A stretch of 23,501 nt of DNA, from positions 1 to 23,501 of IMG/VR virus record IMGVR_UViG_3300006101_000070; one strand, given 5' to 3'. The number at the start of each line of letters is the position of its first letter. Positions within the stretch are counted from its first letter, which is position 1. Source of the DNA: a virus. The notes beneath the pieces were generated by a model. It was not told where the DNA came from, did not search any database, and worked only from the letters and a program-made list of their open reading frames with translations. The position numbers and the translations under genes are program-made. Positions 260 through 8,012 of the stretch are shown here, piece by piece.

Positions 260-1135
260 TTATTCTGCTTGACTGTTTTCCTCAGGCGGTACCCATCCCG
301 CAGGAATATCGTCAGCCGGTACTGTCAGACAACGACAATTTGGGTGAAGCGGAATATCCTCGGCGGTGTAATTATTACTAAAACTTTCCCCAACGTTCAC
401 GACTTCCCCATCGATATCGCACTCTTCGTCTATCGGATCACTAGCCGCCCATTGAATTTTGTCCACTCCTAGCGCGGCGAAAGAATCTCTCGAAGCGGCG
501 TTAGCGGCTCTCGAACCTTCGGTCAGGGCAATCATTAAAGAACGCTCAGGGCTAGAAAGAGAATCCTCAATCATAGAAGCCAGTTTGGTAGGGCTGGCAC
601 CAATAGCGAAACCATCTGCCAACTGAGAGCCGAGCAAGTCGTAACTGCTCTTGTTCATATCAAGGGATTTGATTTCCACTTCCCCGAGTAATTTTTCTAA
701 CCCACCCGGCGGGCGTAGCAAAGCCTCAGCCGCAAAGTTACCCGGTTGCCAGTTATCCCAGTCGATAGCCTTCTCTAAAACCTTAGCCGCCCACCCCATA
801 GAATCCCAATTATGAATCGGTTTCTTTTCGGCTTTCTTAGATCTCAGAATCTTGCCGAAAGCGTCATAAGTCGAAGCAACTCCCGTAACGTACATTTCAG
901 CGTAATGCTGACGGAGAGCAGACTTTAGAGCATCACGATTGAGCGTGACATTATGCATCGCCCACGCTCTAGCCCTAGCCCTGTCCTGCGATATGAACTC
1001 ACTCGTAACCGGATGCGTATGCAGGTAATCAGCAACTACCTTTCGCCCATCGACGCTTTGCTTCAAGGCGGCACGAATCTTTATGGCGGCTTTAGCGGCT
1101 ATGCGCCCATCGACTTGATGAACGCCATGAATCAT
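260..1135 (-). CDS. Mu F-like phage head morphogenesis protein (minor head protein)
   Basis: The product is a 291-residue minor head protein, probably sitting near the portal during head assembly. The C-terminal part carries the hallmark of the Mu-F/SPP1 gp7 family: a WAASDPIDEECDIDGEVV segment (about residues 229-246) followed by PLHPNCRC (about 262-269), the usual H-P-N-C-R-C ending. The N-terminal half is mostly helical and charged. I chose ATG at 1135 because it makes an ATGA overlap with the portal stop. An in-frame start at 1192 would overlap the portal by 61 bases. The gene lies directly after the portal, the standard order. No toxin or protease domain is fused at its C terminus. Confidence 0.85.
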   Translation of the reverse strand: MIHGVHQVDGRIAAKAAIKIRAALKQSVDGRKVVADYLHTHPVTSEFISQDRARARAWAMHNVTLNRDALKSALRQHYAEMYVTGVASTYDAFGKILRSKKAEKKPIHNWDSMGWAAKVLEKAIDWDNWQPGNFAAEALLRPPGGLEKLLGEVEIKSLDMNKSSYDLLGSQLADGFAIGASPTKLASMIEDSLSSPERSLMIALTEGSRAANAASRDSFAALGVDKIQWAASDPIDEECDIDGEVVNVGESFSNNYTAEDIPLHPNCRCLTVPADDIPAGWVPPEENSQAE

Positions 1136-3423
1136 TGCAGATACGCCTTCGCAAGAGATTTCATCGTGTCGAGATCTCCATCGAAGTAGCACCTATTCAG
1201 GGCATCTCCAACGATAGGGTCGAGAGCCTTAAACTCGAACTGACGAGCCCTCTTTCCCTTACTTGACCACTTTAGGAAAGCCTTGACCTCTGCGCTCGCT
1301 TCCTTAGCCATATCGGGAGTGCCAAGCCAGACTGGAACCTGATCCATGCCTAGCAACCACATAGCAAAGAGGCGGTGATGCCCGTCGATGATAATCTGCT
1401 TTTCGCCGTCATCATAAACGAGCGGATACCCACGGTACGGAGTTAGGGCTTGACCCATTGACTCAATATGGTCGGCAACGTTAGAGCGGTCGAGTCCGGT
1501 ATCGGTACCGTATAGATCCTTCACATTGACGAGGGTGAGTTTTGCTTTCTCCCATACATCAGGGCTGACCGGGTAGTCACCGTCCTGAGTTTCGACAACC
1601 GGCCACGGACTCGCTACTGAATCGGCTAACTCTTTCGGACTATCCGAAGTCGGATGGTCGCCAGCCGCGTTCGGAAGTATATGCAATTTGGAGAGCGCAT
1701 CCTTCACTTCTGCCTTAGACGGTACTCCAGCCTTCTGAAAGTCCGCCTCAGTAGTTTCATCCACCGGAGCGGTTGGCTTTTCCTCTGGCTTTTCCTCAGC
1801 AGGAGCCGTCGGTGCTAGTGGGTCGATTTCGTCGTCCACATTCTCAACACCGGCAGTTGGAGCGGCGGCGTTCACGATTCCCTCAGGGGTGAAGAGATAG
1901 ACGCCATTACCAGCAACCAATATTGGCTGGTCAGCGGCGGGAGTATCCAAGAGCGGAAGTCCGAGTTCGCTACGGCGTTCGTTCATTGTCTTAGTGCCGC
2001 CACGAAGTTCGAGATCAGATTTCTTTGCGGCTTGCTCATTGTCGCGGATTTCATTGACCATGAACTTGAATTCGAGTTCGCGTGGCATTTTGAGATATGT
2101 GTACGAAATATTCGTAATCATCTTAGAAACCCATTGAGCCAAAGGAGCGACACCGATAGCCTGAGCCGAATCTGCCTCTCCCTCTTGATGCCCAGAAGCA
2201 CCTAATCCACCTTTTTGAGAGAAACCGATTTCGGTAGGCAACACGCCAAAGTGTCCGGTGATAGAAGTAATCAGGTACTCGTCGAGAGCGGCTCTGAACT
2301 TCTCTCCGTAACCTTCATAGAATTGAGGTTTCAATCCAGACGGCAAAATGAGAGCGCGCTTGCGTTGTTCAGTCTGTCCAGCGAGGTTGTCGTTAATGAT
2401 ATTTTCGTACTGCTTCATCACGAGCGGATCATTACCGAAATCCGCATCCGAGGTCAGCATCATCTCAGGCGTTACGCCGTCGGTATATTCAGCACGAAGC
2501 CATTGCTGGCGACGAAGATAAAGGTCGGCAAGTGGTAGGCAACGCTCTACTGGTGAAGATCCATAAACCGAGTTTGCTCTGCGGTTACGAATAAAGTATG
2601 AAAGGTCGTCGCTCGTGAACTCTCCGTCGGCGTTTACATCATCAGAATTTGCAGTGAACTCCACGCGAGGGAAGCCATAAAGGATTTGCTGATAAGCGGC
2701 TTGCGGTGGCATTGGGCGCATACCGCGGTCGTCGAGTAGTGGCTTAATGGTAGAGCCATCAAGGATTTGGAAGCCGTATAGATCTCCCCCTACTGTCTTT
2801 TGCGGCCAGATAGCCCAAGCATCGAGAACGAGGATTTCTTCAAGGCTCATCATCATCCAGTCGATGAACGTCAATCCATTAGCACGGTCGGGATTTTCCC
2901 AGAAAGTACGAAGGCGATAAATCTCATCTGAAAACTTAGAACGAGCCTGACTCATGGCGCGAGTATGGTCGCCACCAATTTCAGCGATAATCTTTTCACT
3001 TGCATCCTCAGCGATAACGATATCCCAATCCATACCAGAGATTTTGGCTTTGAGGACTTCGATACACCGGCGCACAATGTCGATTTGCTCAGCCGCGCCT
3101 CGGAGAGTCTTGAATTGAACTAACTTCTGCTCAGTTCCGATATTAAGGTTTTGCGCTACTTGGTACTCGTAACGGCGAGGATCAGGGCGACCATCAGCAC
3201 GAAGCGGGTTAATTGCTCCCGGCAGAATAGGTTGTCCGGGTCCGAAAGGAACTCCAGACATTAAAGGATTTCGAAGTAACGGAGTCTGTTGTCCGTAACT
3301 GTTTTGCGTATTCGCATCCCTCATCTGCTGTTCAGTCATTACGACCGCACCCGCAGGGAGATTACTTGGAGCCTTCTCGATTTGTTGTGCTACTGCTTTT
3401 GCTAGACGGTCAATTAGACCCAT
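1132..3423 (-). CDS. Portal protein with C-terminal ParB-like domain
   Basis: The 763-residue product begins with a portal of the HK97-like type: LDGSTIKPLLDDRGM (about 220), NRRANSVYGSSPVE (about 280), LPTEIGFSQKGGLGASG (about 395) and NERRSELGLPLLDTPAAD (about 480). It should form the dodecameric DNA channel at the capsid vertex. After a Pro/Glu-rich linker (about 535-575) comes an extra domain. Its core, QIIIDGHHRLFAMWLLGMD (about 676-694), followed by VPVW, matches the ParB/sulfiredoxin-like fold with a GHHR motif. Portals are usually 400-550 residues, so the last 200 or so are additional. ATG at 3423 has the Shine-Dalgarno AAGGGGA. The gene lies between the large terminase and the Mu-F protein. 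What the ParB-like part does is unknown. Confidence 0.9.
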   Translation of the reverse strand: MGLIDRLAKAVAQQIEKAPSNLPAGAVVMTEQQMRDANTQNSYGQQTPLLRNPLMSGVPFGPGQPILPGAINPLRADGRPDPRRYEYQVAQNLNIGTEQKLVQFKTLRGAAEQIDIVRRCIEVLKAKISGMDWDIVIAEDASEKIIAEIGGDHTRAMSQARSKFSDEIYRLRTFWENPDRANGLTFIDWMMMSLEEILVLDAWAIWPQKTVGGDLYGFQILDGSTIKPLLDDRGMRPMPPQAAYQQILYGFPRVEFTANSDDVNADGEFTSDDLSYFIRNRRANSVYGSSPVERCLPLADLYLRRQQWLRAEYTDGVTPEMMLTSDADFGNDPLVMKQYENIINDNLAGQTEQRKRALILPSGLKPQFYEGYGEKFRAALDEYLITSITGHFGVLPTEIGFSQKGGLGASGHQEGEADSAQAIGVAPLAQWVSKMITNISYTYLKMPRELEFKFMVNEIRDNEQAAKKSDLELRGGTKTMNERRSELGLPLLDTPAADQPILVAGNGVYLFTPEGIVNAAAPTAGVENVDDEIDPLAPTAPAEEKPEEKPTAPVDETTEADFQKAGVPSKAEVKDALSKLHILPNAAGDHPTSDSPKELADSVASPWPVVETQDGDYPVSPDVWEKAKLTLVNVKDLYGTDTGLDRSNVADHIESMGQALTPYRGYPLVYDDGEKQIIIDGHHRLFAMWLLGMDQVPVWLGTPDMAKEASAEVKAFLKWSSKGKRARQFEFKALDPIVGDALNRCYFDGDLDTMKSLAKAYLQ

Positions 3424-3452: not shown

Positions 3453-4826
3453 TCAGGCAGGTGTAATGATAGCGTGATTACACCGAGGGCATAATCTCGT
3501 TCCGCGTACTAACGGCAATCGGCAACTAGGGCAGAAGTCAGCAAGAGCGGCAAGCGAGCGCAGGGCAGTAGATCCACCCATCAAGTCTGATACCGCCCAT
3601 ACCATAGCGTCCATGCGGTCAGGTGATTTATCGCTATCCGGTTCCCACGTCACCAACTGATCTTCGAGTTGCGCAAAGTTATTTCCCACCATGTGAAGGC
3701 GTAATTGTTCAGATAAAGCAGACACCGGCTCGGCTCGAACTTTCTTACCCCTAGACGCGTGAACCTTTCGATACGGGATAGTTGAATCAACCTGTCGGAG
3801 AAGTGACTCAATCATATCGCCACCGTTATTTGCTTCTCCAATAACTCGGTCGCACTTCCACTTTCTAAACATCTCAATGGCTTTTCTCGCCCAGTTTTCA
3901 GGCGTTCCCCTCATTGAAGCATCTTCGAGAATGTAATAGTGACCATCCGGCGTAGCACCGGCTACCACGATTCCAGTTTCGTCCGAGTCTTCGCCACTCG
4001 TCACGGCGGGGTCAATAGCAACCACGACACGGAAATACGGCGGGGCATCCTCAACCTTAATTCGAGCCTGTTCGATAAGATCTCTTGTCCATAGGGCAGA
4101 GTCCGACTCGTTCAGGATTTCCCCATAAAGTTCCTGCCTACCCATTCGAGTACCAGCATATCGAGCCTGTAACTCAATCAACGCTTGCGGAGCGAGGTTG
4201 TCGGCATTATCAAAGGTCGAACCTCTAGCGACTTTAACGGTTCCATCAGTTCGCCCGACGAGGTTTCTAATAAGGCTAACGGGTCGTGGCGTAGTGGTGA
4301 TAACGGTTCGAGGATGCTCTCCAAGGCGCAATCCGAACTGGAGTTGATCCCAAGTGTCCGCGTATCTCCAAGCCGCTAATTCGTCGCACCATGCCCCGTG
4401 ATGCTGTGGTCCGCGAAGGCGGTCAGGTTCATCAGCAGAAAAGAGTTTGATTCGAGATCCATTAGTCAGCACTATCGAACCCTGCGAACGGTTGTAGTCG
4501 TCGATGGAGCCGTAATCTTTTAGTATGTTGATGATGCCCGATTCACCCTCAGCGCATACATCTCTCACGTCGCCAAAGGTAGGAGCCACAATAGCCCACC
4601 TAGTATTCGCTCTCGTAGTTGCTTCCCACGCCAACCACTCAGCCGCAGTTCGAGTTTTACCAGCACCACGCCCAGCGAGATAAAGATAGATACTCCACGG
4701 CTCGTCGCTATTCGGTAACTGCTCCGGCCTCGCTAAGTCCGTCTCCCACGCTATTCGGCGATTCTCTAATCTCTCGTATAGTCTCGATAATCTCTCTCGT
4801 TCTTTGTCGTAAAAGGTTGCCGTCAT
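3453..4826 (-). CDS. terL: Terminase large subunit with C-terminal zinc ribbon
   Basis: This is the ATP-driven packaging motor and headful or cos nuclease, 457 residues. Walker A is GRGAGKT (52-58) and Walker B is AWCDE (145-149). VITTTPRP (175-182) fits the coupling motif. The RNase H-like nuclease carries AIDPAVTSGED (Asp272), VIGEANNGGD (Glu331) and DRMDAMVWA (Asp406). The tail has an unusual CPSC-X10-CPRC zinc ribbon (Cys432, 435, 446, 449). The ATG at 4826 lies 119 bases inside the small terminase gene. I kept this start because the ARPEQLP segment before Walker A is typical of the family and lies in the overlap. The portal follows after a 29-base gap. Confidence 0.97.
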   Translation of the reverse strand: MTATFYDKERERLSRLYERLENRRIAWETDLARPEQLPNSDEPWSIYLYLAGRGAGKTRTAAEWLAWEATTRANTRWAIVAPTFGDVRDVCAEGESGIINILKDYGSIDDYNRSQGSIVLTNGSRIKLFSADEPDRLRGPQHHGAWCDELAAWRYADTWDQLQFGLRLGEHPRTVITTTPRPVSLIRNLVGRTDGTVKVARGSTFDNADNLAPQALIELQARYAGTRMGRQELYGEILNESDSALWTRDLIEQARIKVEDAPPYFRVVVAIDPAVTSGEDSDETGIVVAGATPDGHYYILEDASMRGTPENWARKAIEMFRKWKCDRVIGEANNGGDMIESLLRQVDSTIPYRKVHASRGKKVRAEPVSALSEQLRLHMVGNNFAQLEDQLVTWEPDSDKSPDRMDAMVWAVSDLMGGSTALRSLAALADFCPSCRLPLVRGTRLCPRCNHAIITPA

Positions 4827-5187
4827 AGTTAGTTACCTCAACTTCTGTTTTGATAGGCATATCTAAGCCGTAGAGTTTTGCATCGCGTTCAAGTATTCGG
4901 AGCATCATTGCAATTGCTCTTAGATCCCCGCTAAGCACTCTATCCCATATAGCAGTTAAGGCGGTTTCGAGTCTAGCCCTATGTAACTCTCTACCCTCAC
5001 TCGCTAACGCATCATCTCTCGTACGCTCTAGTGCTCTCTTAAAAGCGGCGTGTGCGCCTGACGGATGGGAGTACCCCATCTTCTCCGCAATCTGATCAAA
5101 AGTTAATCCGCCCTTACGGTACTTTAGGACTTGTCGCTCTTTTTCAATAAGGGCAGGATCTAACTTAATTACATTAGTGTCGCTCAT
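4708..5187 (-). CDS. terS: Terminase small subunit
   Basis: The product (159 residues) should recognise the packaging site and hand DNA to the large subunit. A helix-turn-helix runs over about residues 27-52 (GLTFDQIAEKMGYSHPSGAH followed by AAFKRAL), as in actinophage small terminases. A helical oligomerisation region follows, ending at RDAKLYGLDMP. I chose ATG at 5187 (MSDTNVIKL). The frame stays open to 5325, but that stretch overlaps the end of the epimerase and reads as shadow. No Shine-Dalgarno precedes the ATG. Instead a TACAAT box lies six bases upstream, suggesting a leaderless transcript. The last 39 codons overlap terL in another frame. Confidence 0.9.
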   Translation of the reverse strand: MSDTNVIKLDPALIEKERQVLKYRKGGLTFDQIAEKMGYSHPSGAHAAFKRALERTRDDALASEGRELHRARLETALTAIWDRVLSGDLRAIAMMLRILERDAKLYGLDMPIKTEVEVTNYDGNLLRQRTREIIETIREIRESPNSVGDGLSEAGAVTE

Positions 5188-5209: not shown

Positions 5210-6232
5210 TTATTCTTTAGCAGTATTCCAAGTAATACCTTCGTTAGTCTTAAACCACTCCACTGTTTCGCGGATTCCATCTTCAAGTGACTTAAAGGTG
5301 TTGGGGTCAATTCCAATAGCGGCAAGCGTTGAAGTGTCGGCAGATACTACTGTTCCGAGTTCCCTAACTACACGTTGAACCTGAATTCTATTAAGATCAG
5401 GATTCACTTTGGTTACGGCATCTACGATTTGCTTCAACTTCTCCGGGGTATCTATTGCCCCACCGTGAGGCTCACCGGTGCGCATAGGCACTAAGTCAAT
5501 TTCCGCATCCGGTACATATTTTTGAACTATTTTCGCAACATCTAAAACTGTGTGAGGGGTCACATTACCAACATCGATTGGGTGCTTAGGGATATTTCCC
5601 TTTGCCGCCTCTTCAATAGCAGTAACGAACACTCTAGCCACATCTCCGACCCATACCGAGTCGCTGTATTGAGTTCCCCCACCGTATAGGCGCATAGCGT
5701 TTCCGGATAAAGCAGAGCAGATGAAGGAAGGCACAATTTTGCGTACCTTTGCCGAAGCATAAGGAGAAGGGGCTGATTGTCTTGGTCCATAAGCGTTCAT
5801 TGGGCGAACCGAGATCACCTTTAGCCCTCTATCTTCTCTATACATCTCCACGAATCGTTCTCCGCAAGATTTTGTAATGCAGTAAGTACCTCTAGCAATA
5901 TTGGCATTGCCTACCGCCGCGAACACCATCGGCAAGTCGTATCGTGAAGCGGCTTCGAATACATTTAGAGCACCAACGATGTTGATTTCAGCCGAGGCAA
6001 GTGGAGCATCGATTGTTTCAGTAGTTCCTAGCACCGCCGCAAGGTGAATGATCGCATCTACGTGTGCCGCCATTTCCATTACGATTGTTGAATCTCTTAC
6101 ATCACCGAGAAGCCCTTTACCATCTAGGCGACCTTTATGGTCCAGCACATAAGGTGTATGCCCTCTTTTTACTAATTCTTCTTTTATCCAAGATCCAATA
6201 AAACCCGAACCGCCTGTAATTCCTACAATCAT
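5210..6232 (-). CDS. NAD-dependent sugar epimerase/dehydratase (SDR family)
   Basis: This is an extended short-chain dehydrogenase/reductase of 340 residues, the normal length for nucleotide-sugar epimerases and dehydratases. It opens with a Rossmann motif, TGGSGFIG (6-13). It has HLAA (63-66), the catalytic YxxxK as YCITK (Tyr117, Lys121) and the substrate-side motif RPMNAYGPRQ. The probable substrate is a nucleotide sugar in the host cytosol, but the sugar cannot be told from sequence. It starts in an ATGA overlap with the glycosyltransferase gene, so the two are probably translationally coupled. This suggests it supplies a sugar donor to that enzyme. Such a gene is not part of the core terminase module. 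Confidence 0.9.
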   Translation of the reverse strand: MIVGITGGSGFIGSWIKEELVKRGHTPYVLDHKGRLDGKGLLGDVRDSTIVMEMAAHVDAIIHLAAVLGTTETIDAPLASAEINIVGALNVFEAASRYDLPMVFAAVGNANIARGTYCITKSCGERFVEMYREDRGLKVISVRPMNAYGPRQSAPSPYASAKVRKIVPSFICSALSGNAMRLYGGGTQYSDSVWVGDVARVFVTAIEEAAKGNIPKHPIDVGNVTPHTVLDVAKIVQKYVPDAEIDLVPMRTGEPHGGAIDTPEKLKQIVDAVTKVNPDLNRIQVQRVVRELGTVVSADTSTLAAIGIDPNTFKSLEDGIRETVEWFKTNEGITWNTAKE

Positions 6233-7101
6233 TTGCTTGCCCCTGTTCTTATTTTTTTATAACTCTCGTGAATAATCTTTGGTACGGCATTATCCCATTT
6301 AATCGCGTGATGAAAACGATTATTAGTTACGCCTATTGTGCCAATCTTAACGCACGAAGGCGACATAATTACAGAATAAAAAGACTTTACATACGTTCCG
6401 GAATTCAAGTACGCATCTGTCATACCCCCACTCGCTTTTTGAGTTTGAGTTTGAGTAAGGCATACATCCATTACTGTGAAAAAAAGTTGCCCTCTTGACC
6501 CATGAACTATGTAGGCATTAACGTCGTCGTTTATTTTACCGATGAACTCAACAGGGTCGTTTGTTTTAAGAAAAAAAGAGTTCATTGCCTTGCGTTTTAA
6601 CCGGTGTTTATGACCCCCATTTATACCGCCTATGAGATCCCCACCTTGCGCAAAAGCAACAGTTTTTGCTCCGGTATCATCCAAAAAAGTGAGCATTGCT
6701 TCGATAACGTCATCCATATTACGAATTGCTGTTGAACCTAGTTTTTTCCCATTAGGAAATCTATGAAGAAAACTATTGTAATCATCGTCTAATTGAACGA
6801 AATAATCTAACTCTAAATTACGCGCTATTTGAAAACAGGCATTTCGAGCATAAACTATCGCCAATCTATCCGGCTGAGTATCTGCCGTGTCAAAAGTTTC
6901 GGCTACGGCTTTCTTGTCGAACTCAATTACCCACTCCGCACCGAATTCTTTTCTATATTCATCCCCTAAGGGATCTTCATTGTCAATAATGATGTAAGTT
7001 CTGCCTGTATAACCACTTTTTTTTAGAGTTTTAGCAGTAATAACATTTTTAGGTCGTCCGTGTGTCAAAATAAACACCGCGAACCTTTTATGCTCCGGCA
7101 C
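6229..7101 (-). CDS. GT-A-like glycosyltransferase resembling phage TET-associated glycosyltransferases (TAGT)
   Basis: The 290-residue product starts FAVFILTHGRPKN, then IIDNEDP (about 38-44), YARNACFQIA (about 84-93) and a DXD-type metal and nucleotide-sugar site, QLDDDYNSF (about 103-111). From memory this order matches the TAGT family, which glycosylates modified cytosines in phage DNA. I could not run a search. I chose GTG at 7101 because GGAAAG lies about 8 bases upstream and only 14 bases overlap the ParB-like gene. The longer ATG start at 7164 would overlap by 77 and add a non-family N terminus. The gene ends in an ATGA overlap with the epimerase. Acting on capsid or surface sugars is an alternative. 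Confidence 0.75.
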   Translation of the reverse strand: MPEHKRFAVFILTHGRPKNVITAKTLKKSGYTGRTYIIIDNEDPLGDEYRKEFGAEWVIEFDKKAVAETFDTADTQPDRLAIVYARNACFQIARNLELDYFVQLDDDYNSFLHRFPNGKKLGSTAIRNMDDVIEAMLTFLDDTGAKTVAFAQGGDLIGGINGGHKHRLKRKAMNSFFLKTNDPVEFIGKINDDVNAYIVHGSRGQLFFTVMDVCLTQTQTQKASGGMTDAYLNSGTYVKSFYSVIMSPSCVKIGTIGVTNNRFHHAIKWDNAVPKIIHESYKKIRTGASK

Positions 7102-7846
7102 TGTTTTGACTTTCCAACTCGGCAATCGTATCAGCGAATTTAACATAACCATTACGAATAGCATTGTTAAAATCTATTATCACTAGTGCGGAGTTTTCCA
7201 TAAGTTCCTGAACCTCTACCGGTGCGTGCGCATAGTATTCTGCTATTTTTTTATAATTAAACACTACGTGCCTATACGCCGCCAATGCGAGAAAGCCTTT
7301 ATCTGCTTCCGAAATATCAGATGCCTGAATTTGTGCGTTTAACTCATAAAACTTTTGCAAGTCAGCGAGATCAGAAACTTCCGGCTTTTCTCCCACAATT
7401 TCATAGTGAGGCACATTTACCGTTGCCGTGTAGGGGTTTTCATCGTCAAAATCTTTTTTTATTTCCTCAAAATCATCTTTTGTAAATCCGAGTTTGCCTA
7501 TATTCCATCCGTTAGCATCTAAATCTAGCAACTGGCTTGCAAGAGTTTGATTATCCCATTCAGCCAATTCGGATGAGCGGTTATCGGCGAGCGCATAGGC
7601 TTTCGCGGTGTTTTCGTCCCACGCATCAGGGCATCGTGATATCGTGATTTCATGCCATCCGAGAGCCTTAGCCGCTTCGAGCGTTCCATTTCCAGCAATC
7701 ACTACATCCTGATGAACGACTATTGGTTTGCGTTGCCCGAACTTAGTTAGGCTCGCGGCGATAGTATCTATATTACGTTTTGAGTGTTTCCGAGCGTTCT
7801 GCGGGTCGAGAATCAGACTCTCGATTAGTACCGTTTCCACCTTCAT
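7088..7846 (-). CDS. ParB-like domain protein, first gene of putative DNA-modification cassette
   Basis: The product has 252 residues. Residues 1 to about 95 form a ParB/Srx-like domain: ILDPQNARKHSKRNI, then VVIAGNGTLEAAKALGW and the ADNRSSELAEWD segment. These are typical of phage ParB-like proteins, often linked to DNA methylases. From about residue 135 a second conserved region follows, NPYTATVNVPHYEIVGEKP, then AAYRHVVFNYKKIAEYYAHA and MENSALVIIDFNNAIRNGY. I recall this type of C-terminal region near DNA-modification glycosyltransferases, without proof. No methylase domain is present. ATG at 7846 overlaps the 79-residue upstream gene by 74 bases. A GAGG-type Shine-Dalgarno is present. 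It likely acts on DNA or as an adaptor for modification. Confidence 0.8.
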   Translation of the reverse strand: MKVETVLIESLILDPQNARKHSKRNIDTIAASLTKFGQRKPIVVHQDVVIAGNGTLEAAKALGWHEITISRCPDAWDENTAKAYALADNRSSELAEWDNQTLASQLLDLDANGWNIGKLGFTKDDFEEIKKDFDDENPYTATVNVPHYEIVGEKPEVSDLADLQKFYELNAQIQASDISEADKGFLALAAYRHVVFNYKKIAEYYAHAPVEVQELMENSALVIIDFNNAIRNGYVKFADTIAELESQNSAGA

Positions 7847-8012
7847 TTAGTGCCTCTAATCTGGCGTCGAGCAAAGAATCCAACTCACCCATGAGCAACG
7901 CCTTACGCTGATGGGTGAGTCTATTGCCGTACCTGTCCTTCAACATCTCGGCAATATAAGAAATCGCCTCGTCGATATCAGCGACGGTGACTTCTTCCTT
8001 TTCAATTATCAC
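7773..8012 (-). CDS. Small protein of unknown function (79 aa)
   Basis: The product starts with GTG at 8010-8012. The first 55 residues are helical and acidic, with DIDEAISYIAEMLKDRYGN and LLMGELDSLLDARLEAL. The last 24 are polar and overlap the ParB-like gene in another frame. It sits five bases after the small HTH gene. The Shine-Dalgarno is weak. Family not recognised. The helical part looks like a real small protein; the tail may be only a by-product of the overlap. Confidence 0.55.
   Translation of the reverse strand: MIIEKEEVTVADIDEAISYIAEMLKDRYGNRLTHQRKALLMGELDSLLDARLEALNEGGNGTNRESDSRPAERSETLKT

Follow-up and report, generated by a model that had tools for sequence, protein, structure and literature searches.

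What does a phage glycosyltransferase modify when its gene follows that of a ParB-like protein just upstream of the terminase genes, and where would its acceptor come from? The question is raised by a three-gene cassette in the IMG/VR record IMGVR_UViG_3300006101_000070, which was analysed over its entire length of 23,501 bp (hereafter, the window) and is a fragment of a phage genome. The cassette encodes a ParB-like protein, a glycosyltransferase of the TAGT family, and an epimerase/dehydratase of the SDR family. The original prediction, made from the nucleotide sequence, read it as a possible DNA hypermodification cassette whose glycosyltransferase sugar-modifies cytosines. Our answer, which we hold to be probable but with ample room for doubt, is that the first two proteins form a phage DNA-glycosylation unit in which the ParB-like protein is an adaptor that docks the enzyme, and whose acceptor would not be 5-hydroxymethylcytosine (hmC) made by the phage.

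The adaptor, the TAGT, and their linkage

The glycosyltransferase belongs to the TAGT family. It matches the Pfam model PF20691 with an E-value of 1.3e-35 and 123.6 bits (gathering cut-off 27.5), and its only other strong family matches are to PHROG 842/31222. The profile search proposed along with the prediction thus bears out a TAGT-like enzyme, and the THGRP, IIDNEDP, and LDDDY motifs that had suggested it are all present in the frame listed at 6229-7164. A best match to a capsid or lipopolysaccharide (LPS) glycosyltransferase family had been named as evidence to the contrary, and none of the strong matches is of this kind. Plain LPS or capsid modification was set aside for want of such a match, and restriction-modification and partition were likewise considered as roles and set aside. 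The structural model of the enzyme (pLDDT 93.7) has a GT-A fold, with matches to SpsA (E 2e-5) and GnT-I (Z 14.4 over 200 residues, with a root-mean-square deviation, rmsd, of 3.8). Its DDD motif is nearly invariant among 84 relatives, all 84 of which have D104 and D105 (A6 numbering). Sequence searches of the PDB with the TAGT and the ParB-like protein gave no significant match.

The ParB-like protein has two parts. The AlphaFold2 model of its N-terminal module aligns with CTP-bound ParB (7bnr) over 136 residues (Z 15.5, rmsd 3.4); against the Pfam ParB model the protein scores 15.8 bits, under the cut-off of 26.3. The C-terminal ~110 residues apparently constitute an undescribed domain tied to TAGT, in keeping with the earlier suggestion of a second domain in this protein, and are conserved on their own. 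This C-domain is all-helical in the AlphaFold2 prediction; Y139, P146, Y148, R192, A202, D225, A229, and G233 are invariant among 76 sequences, and H193, Q213, and E217 nearly so. The structure search gave no convincing match for its fold, the match list being mostly filled by the ParB domain. In large phages the C-domain also occurs alone beside TAGT, without the ParB module.

The association between the two genes is reciprocal. Scans with the TAGT alignment recovered at least 584 virus contigs and 26 genome contigs, the latter spanning Firmicutes, Bacteroidota, Proteobacteria, Spirochaetes, Verrucomicrobia, and others, and a C-domain gene adjoins TAGT in 101 of the 103 loci with enough upstream sequence, mostly with an overlap of a few bases. 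When the C-domain itself was used in a separate scan, TAGT was adjacent in all 72 testable loci (immediately downstream in 71, on both sides in one), and each of the 28 annotated phage records that contain the C-domain encodes TAGT as well. We compared five genomes unrelated to one another: the complete relatives Lactobacillus c5, phi jlb1, the archaeal HHTV-2, and Nocardia NTR1, and the Rac-like Escherichia record 683R6. At a criterion of families in at least three members (phmmer E<1e-3), below the sensitivity of which a remote third partner is possible, the adaptor and the TAGT, each present in five of five, are the only families shared; c5 and phi jlb1 were compared in full, and HHTV-2, NTR1, and 683R6 but for short stretches at their ends. 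Judged by gene content, the core of the cassette is therefore these two genes.

Two genomic contexts and the case for DNA

The pair is found in two contexts, which differ in the N-terminus of the adaptor. Where the adaptor combines the ParB module and the C-domain, 53 of 63 loci have the gene of the large terminase subunit (TerL) no more than 4.5 kb downstream. Intact adaptors with the C-domain only have TerL nearby in none of 11 testable loci (five more with TerL were set apart, as contig-edge truncations or, for L053, as having a divergent ParB domain), and they are surrounded by genes for a family-A polymerase (PolA), DnaB, primase (Toprim), and a DnaN-like clamp. The N-terminal peptide of these ParB-less adaptors resembles the bacterial clamp-binding motif, which is QxxLF. 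LF stands close to the N-terminus in 14 of 16 of them vs 28 of 299 background open reading frames (ORFs), a contrast whose significance is overstated, since the sequences counted are related and hence not independent; their start codons are also uncertain. Examples are MKQINLFG, MKQVNLFG, MIQKTLFG, MPLFKI, and MALFNV, and the polymerases of the same operons begin with MPLFEIP, MALFTIP, or MSALFKIP. A precedent for replication-linked DNA glycosylation is provided by T4, whose alpha-GT co-purifies with the gp45 sliding clamp (PMC13216743). Some loci have two tandem TAGTs and one, L056 (5419-10843), has five, along with a C-domain-only adaptor and a separate cytidylyltransferase, in a stretch bounded by a clamp-like gene on one side and RecU/RecA genes on the other; a multi-step sugar chain is a possible product of these five enzymes.

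Both the ParB module and the slot before the terminase are shared with DNA-modifying enzymes. The module is also the N-terminal part of phage N6/N4-methyltransferases (53-56% identity; PHROG 498, PADLOC MTase_II, the latter matching the E. coli adaptor at 1e-38), and these ParB-methyltransferase fusions occupy the same place; in them the methyltransferase is fused to the module, whereas here a separate glycosyltransferase accompanies an adaptor domain. In Mycobacterium phage Nigel, gp1-gp3 in this slot are a ParB-like protein, a Tet_JBP protein, and a P-loop nucleotide kinase (PF18751), followed by TerL. Nigel thus has TET and kinase where the window has TAGT and the adaptor domain, and its ParB lacks the C-domain. 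As an aside, at 776-2382 of Nigel (L214, NC_011044), gp2 is annotated 'queuine tRNA-ribosyltransferase' and has Tet_JBP as its sole Pfam match, and gp3, annotated as the small terminase subunit (TerS), matches PF18751; the two are probably a misannotated hypermodification cassette. TET phages with TET/JBP-associated hypermodification cassettes were reportedly described by Iyer/Aravind and by Burke et al.

Three arguments make DNA the likeliest target of the TAGT. First, the ParB module is shared with phage DNA methyltransferases. Second, Nigel holds a ParB-TET-kinase set in the same slot. Third, the ParB-less versions lie in replisome operons and start with the clamp-binding-like LF peptide. 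The predicted role in DNA modification can, on the strength of the module, the slot, and the replisome context, now be graded as probable. In the mechanism we propose, the C-domain of the adaptor would recruit or activate the TAGT, and its N-terminus would dock the pair on replicating or packaging-stage phage DNA, by the ParB-fold module in phages and prophages with the adaptor beside the terminase, and by the short clamp-binding-like peptide in phages encoding their own polymerase and sliding clamp. The TAGT would then transfer a sugar from a nucleotide-sugar donor to DNA, on an acceptor other than hmC produced by a phage TET or hydroxymethylase. The donor may be customised by the SDR enzyme in the window, a task that in other loci may fall to GalE, a UXS-like SDR, or a His-phosphatase/cytidylyltransferase, and phages devoid of a donor module would use those of the host. 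The likely use of the modification would be to shield the DNA from host nucleases.

The acceptor and the hmC route

The original prediction had noted that the window lacks the oxidising or hydroxymethylating enzyme needed for cytosine glycosylation. Searches with PF12851 (Tet_JBP), PF00145 (C5-methyltransferase), and PF00303 (thymidylate synthase/dCMP-hydroxymethylase) gave no match in c5, HHTV-2, phi jlb1, NTR1, and 683R6, and PF00303 had none in the window itself. Nor were PF00303 and PF00145 found in 23 contigs longer than 31 kb, including L034 and L047, which are ~42 kb long and carry the same three-gene cassette; the search with PF12851 covered the five relatives, and that with PF00145, whose controls were positive, covered 8 records in addition to the 23 contigs. 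The other controls also worked: PF00303 matched the gene directly beside the T6 TAGT, and PF12851 matched Nigel gp2. One exception is Vibrio pv27, which has a PF00303 protein. Negative results with PF20515, another 2-oxoglutarate oxygenase model, were given no weight, because even the TET control Nigel was unmatched. Since the relatives lack hmC genes, it is unlikely that an oxidase is missing only because the record is a fragment, and the enzyme probably does not lie just beyond its ends; the hmC pathway is the part of the prediction that finds no support.

TET- or hydroxymethylase-dependent hypermodification of cytosine, with its first-step enzyme elsewhere in the genome, is accordingly improbable in our view, given the five genomes and the long contigs in which working models found no such enzyme, even though the TAGT name derives from an association with TET, the T6 TAGT adjoins a PF00303 gene, and the window is a fragment. 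The comparison with T-even phages illustrates the point. The T6 beta-glucosyl-HMC-alpha-glucosyltransferase (YP_010067197) is of the same Pfam family (PF20691), but in T6 a gene of the dCMP-hydroxymethylase type stands beside it and no source of hmC was found here. The adaptor domain was searched for in T-even records and none was found.

Several points weigh against a DNA-glycosylation unit. DNA activity is established only for the distant T6 TAGT, which is 13% identical to that of the window; hhalign of the window TAGT family profile against it gave no link, and by these comparisons the family is tied to the T6 enzyme through the Pfam model alone. The phosphate motif of ParB is GNGT in the window, not of the canonical GERR type (many relatives have GHxR), and with it the module may have lost nucleotide binding. 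The LF count is open to the inflation mentioned above. Finally, the genomes encode no source of a base hydroxyl, and the DNA chemistry is thus without precedent unless an unseen enzyme provides one.

Because the T6 TAGT is so dissimilar and linked by the Pfam model only, protein glycosylation stays a serious rival, albeit one that we judge unlikely. The target of the TAGT would in that case be a component of the virion or terminase, or else the adaptor, which would serve as its substrate or substrate selector. This would agree with the lack of a base-hydroxyl source, with the terminase as usual neighbour, with an adaptor domain that has invariant tyrosines and is conserved like an enzyme partner, and with the closest solved GT-A folds, which include protein glycosyltransferases. 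It is harder to reconcile with the replisome-type loci, where there are a polymerase and a clamp but no terminase nearby, with a ParB module and a slot that belong to DNA-modifying enzymes, and with the five genomes, which have no virion protein detectably in common.

If DNA glycosylation is retained as the preferred reading, a bolder version of it can be put forward tentatively, as a possibility that we would not yet favour: an hmC-independent system in which the TAGT places a sugar (or a short chain of sugars, where TAGTs are tandem) directly on an unmodified base or on one altered by the adaptor domain, with swappable docking by ParB or clamp peptide, in viruses of Bacteria and Archaea and in about one-sixth of complete E. 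coli genomes.

Donor modules, locus organisation, and ynaK

The third gene of the cassette encodes an SDR epimerase/dehydratase (PF01370, 1.6e-34; PHROG 540) that falls below every NCBIfam cut-off, including that of GalE (TIGR01179, 59.8 bits vs 262.3). Its type is in the minority, with 11 loci clustering with it, and its closest relatives retain GxTGGxGFIG and YCITK without the usual Ser/Thr before the Tyr (AAVGNANI). Elsewhere other enzymes take its place. L072 has a true GalE (339.3 bits vs the cut-off of 262.3), and L101 an SDR with a YDEGK motif, which we take to be typical of UDP-xylose synthase (UXS), making this enzyme presumably UXS-like. In 14 loci (L059, at 867-1814, and 13 similar ones), a His-phosphatase fused to a cytidylyltransferase, of the glycerol-3-phosphate/heptose nucleotidyltransferase type, fills the gap between adaptor and TAGT. 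Such swaps of donor enzymes between loci fit a glycosyltransferase with a varying sugar. The suggestion that the epimerase makes the donor is plausible, but as part of the cassette core it does not stand: being absent or replaced elsewhere, the SDR is, from its distribution, an optional donor module.

The closest annotated-phage relative of this SDR shares its unusual VGNA motif and comes from Streptomyces phage Frankenweenie (L008, 6001-7799), where it is paired with another, GT2-like glycosyltransferase in a tail-gene region. This neighbourhood, and the many acceptors served by GT2-like folds, would suit an acceptor that is RNA, tRNA, or a small molecule, or the modification of surface glycans by a moron-type cassette. 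We regard these as very improbable, considering the obligate partner with its ParB-fold module, the replisome or terminase context, and the lack of any match among 72,556 plasmid records.

The three genes lie at the positions given in the original prediction, overlapping or end to end, are all on the minus strand, and are translationally coupled upstream of TerS-TerL (Table 1). The order of transcription is ParB-like, TAGT, SDR, TerS, TerL, and portal, with an ATGA overlap between the TAGT stop and the SDR start. For the TAGT, the listed start (ATG 7164) is probably incorrect. GTG 7101 is the better choice because relatives begin nearby and have similar short overlaps with the adaptor; it is preceded by GGAAAG and gives an overlap of 14 nt with the ParB-like gene. 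No near-identical phage records to the window were found.

Table 1. Coordinates of the cassette and its terminase neighbours in the window.
Feature	Position	Strand	Remarks
ParB-like adaptor, whole gene (252 aa), relative of E. coli YnaK	7088..7846	-	
Adaptor N-terminal ParB/Srx-fold module, residues 1-135	7442..7846	-	AlphaFold2 match to CTP-bound ParB
Adaptor C-terminal TAGT-partner domain, residues ~139-245, predicted all-helical	7112..7432	-	Conserved on its own
TAGT-family GT-A glycosyltransferase, 290 aa, corrected GTG start	6229..7101	-	PF20691
TAGT DDD (DxD-type), putative metal/donor-binding motif	6781..6789	-	Conserved Asp
SDR-family nucleotide-sugar epimerase/dehydratase, optional donor module; YCITK at residue 117	5210..6232	-	PF01370
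Small terminase subunit candidate (TerS)	4708..5187	-	PHROG 645 2e-26, helix-turn-helix; ATG at 5187
Large terminase subunit (TerL), conserved neighbour	3453..4826	-	PF03237/PF17289

Three neighbouring features deserve mention. A 79-aa ORF at 7773-8012 (minus strand) overlaps the adaptor start and is kept in the same place in 10 loci. The portal gene (1132-3423, minus strand) has a ParB-like C-terminal segment at residues ~630-710 (IIDGHHRLFAMWLLG; PHROG 620 weak, E 0.003), giving a portal-ParB fusion. The C-terminus of TerL (3453-4826, minus strand) bears a zinc-ribbon-like tail with four Cys (CPSCRLPLVRGTRLCPRCNH), for which the DZR match is weak.

The pair is also common in E. coli: 885 of 5,426 complete genomes (about a sixth) carry at least 80% of the adaptor-TAGT DNA. 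The ynaK gene of K-12 and C600 (87 aa) corresponds to the 5' end of the adaptor gene; K-12 has lost the TAGT and the adaptor C-domain, and the Rac prophage of C600 has the adaptor 5' end only, followed by ydaY. K-12 ynaK is a truncated remnant of the adaptor gene. Other E. coli retain an intact adaptor gene of 263 aa together with the TAGT, and in strain DA33137 (L120, 12001-12792) the adaptor ORF has this full length. In the annotation it figures as a pseudogene, an incomplete ynaK, seemingly because it was compared with the truncated K-12 copy. Among the Cequinqueviruses of Lactobacillus delbrueckii, the pair is kept in c5 and phiLdb, a separate adaptor is missing from LL-Ku and Ld17, and a short remnant is left in Ld25A. 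Such reduction indicates an accessory unit, as expected of a counter-defence trait. We found no prior description in the literature on ynaK, HHTV-2 modification, or Lactobacillus ParB-TAGT; an earlier mention is possible, e.g., in the 2013 survey by Iyer et al., which is said to have named the TAGT family.

A recent study counted 288 of 753 phage genomes with a TAGT but neither alpha- nor beta-GT, and suggested novel transferases (PMC13216743, 2026). The adaptor-TAGT system is an example of these solitary TAGTs, and a large group of them can now be assigned an obligate partner, two genomic contexts, and a model of docking, of which, as of ParB, that study makes no mention. Our analysis also accounts for the origin of ynaK in K-12. 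As the pair is common in the Rac-type prophages of E. coli, the question of the acceptor may be approached by a simple experiment in laboratory strains. If DNA is indeed modified without hmC, this would reveal a new chemistry for the protection of phage DNA and provide a new DNA-labelling enzyme.

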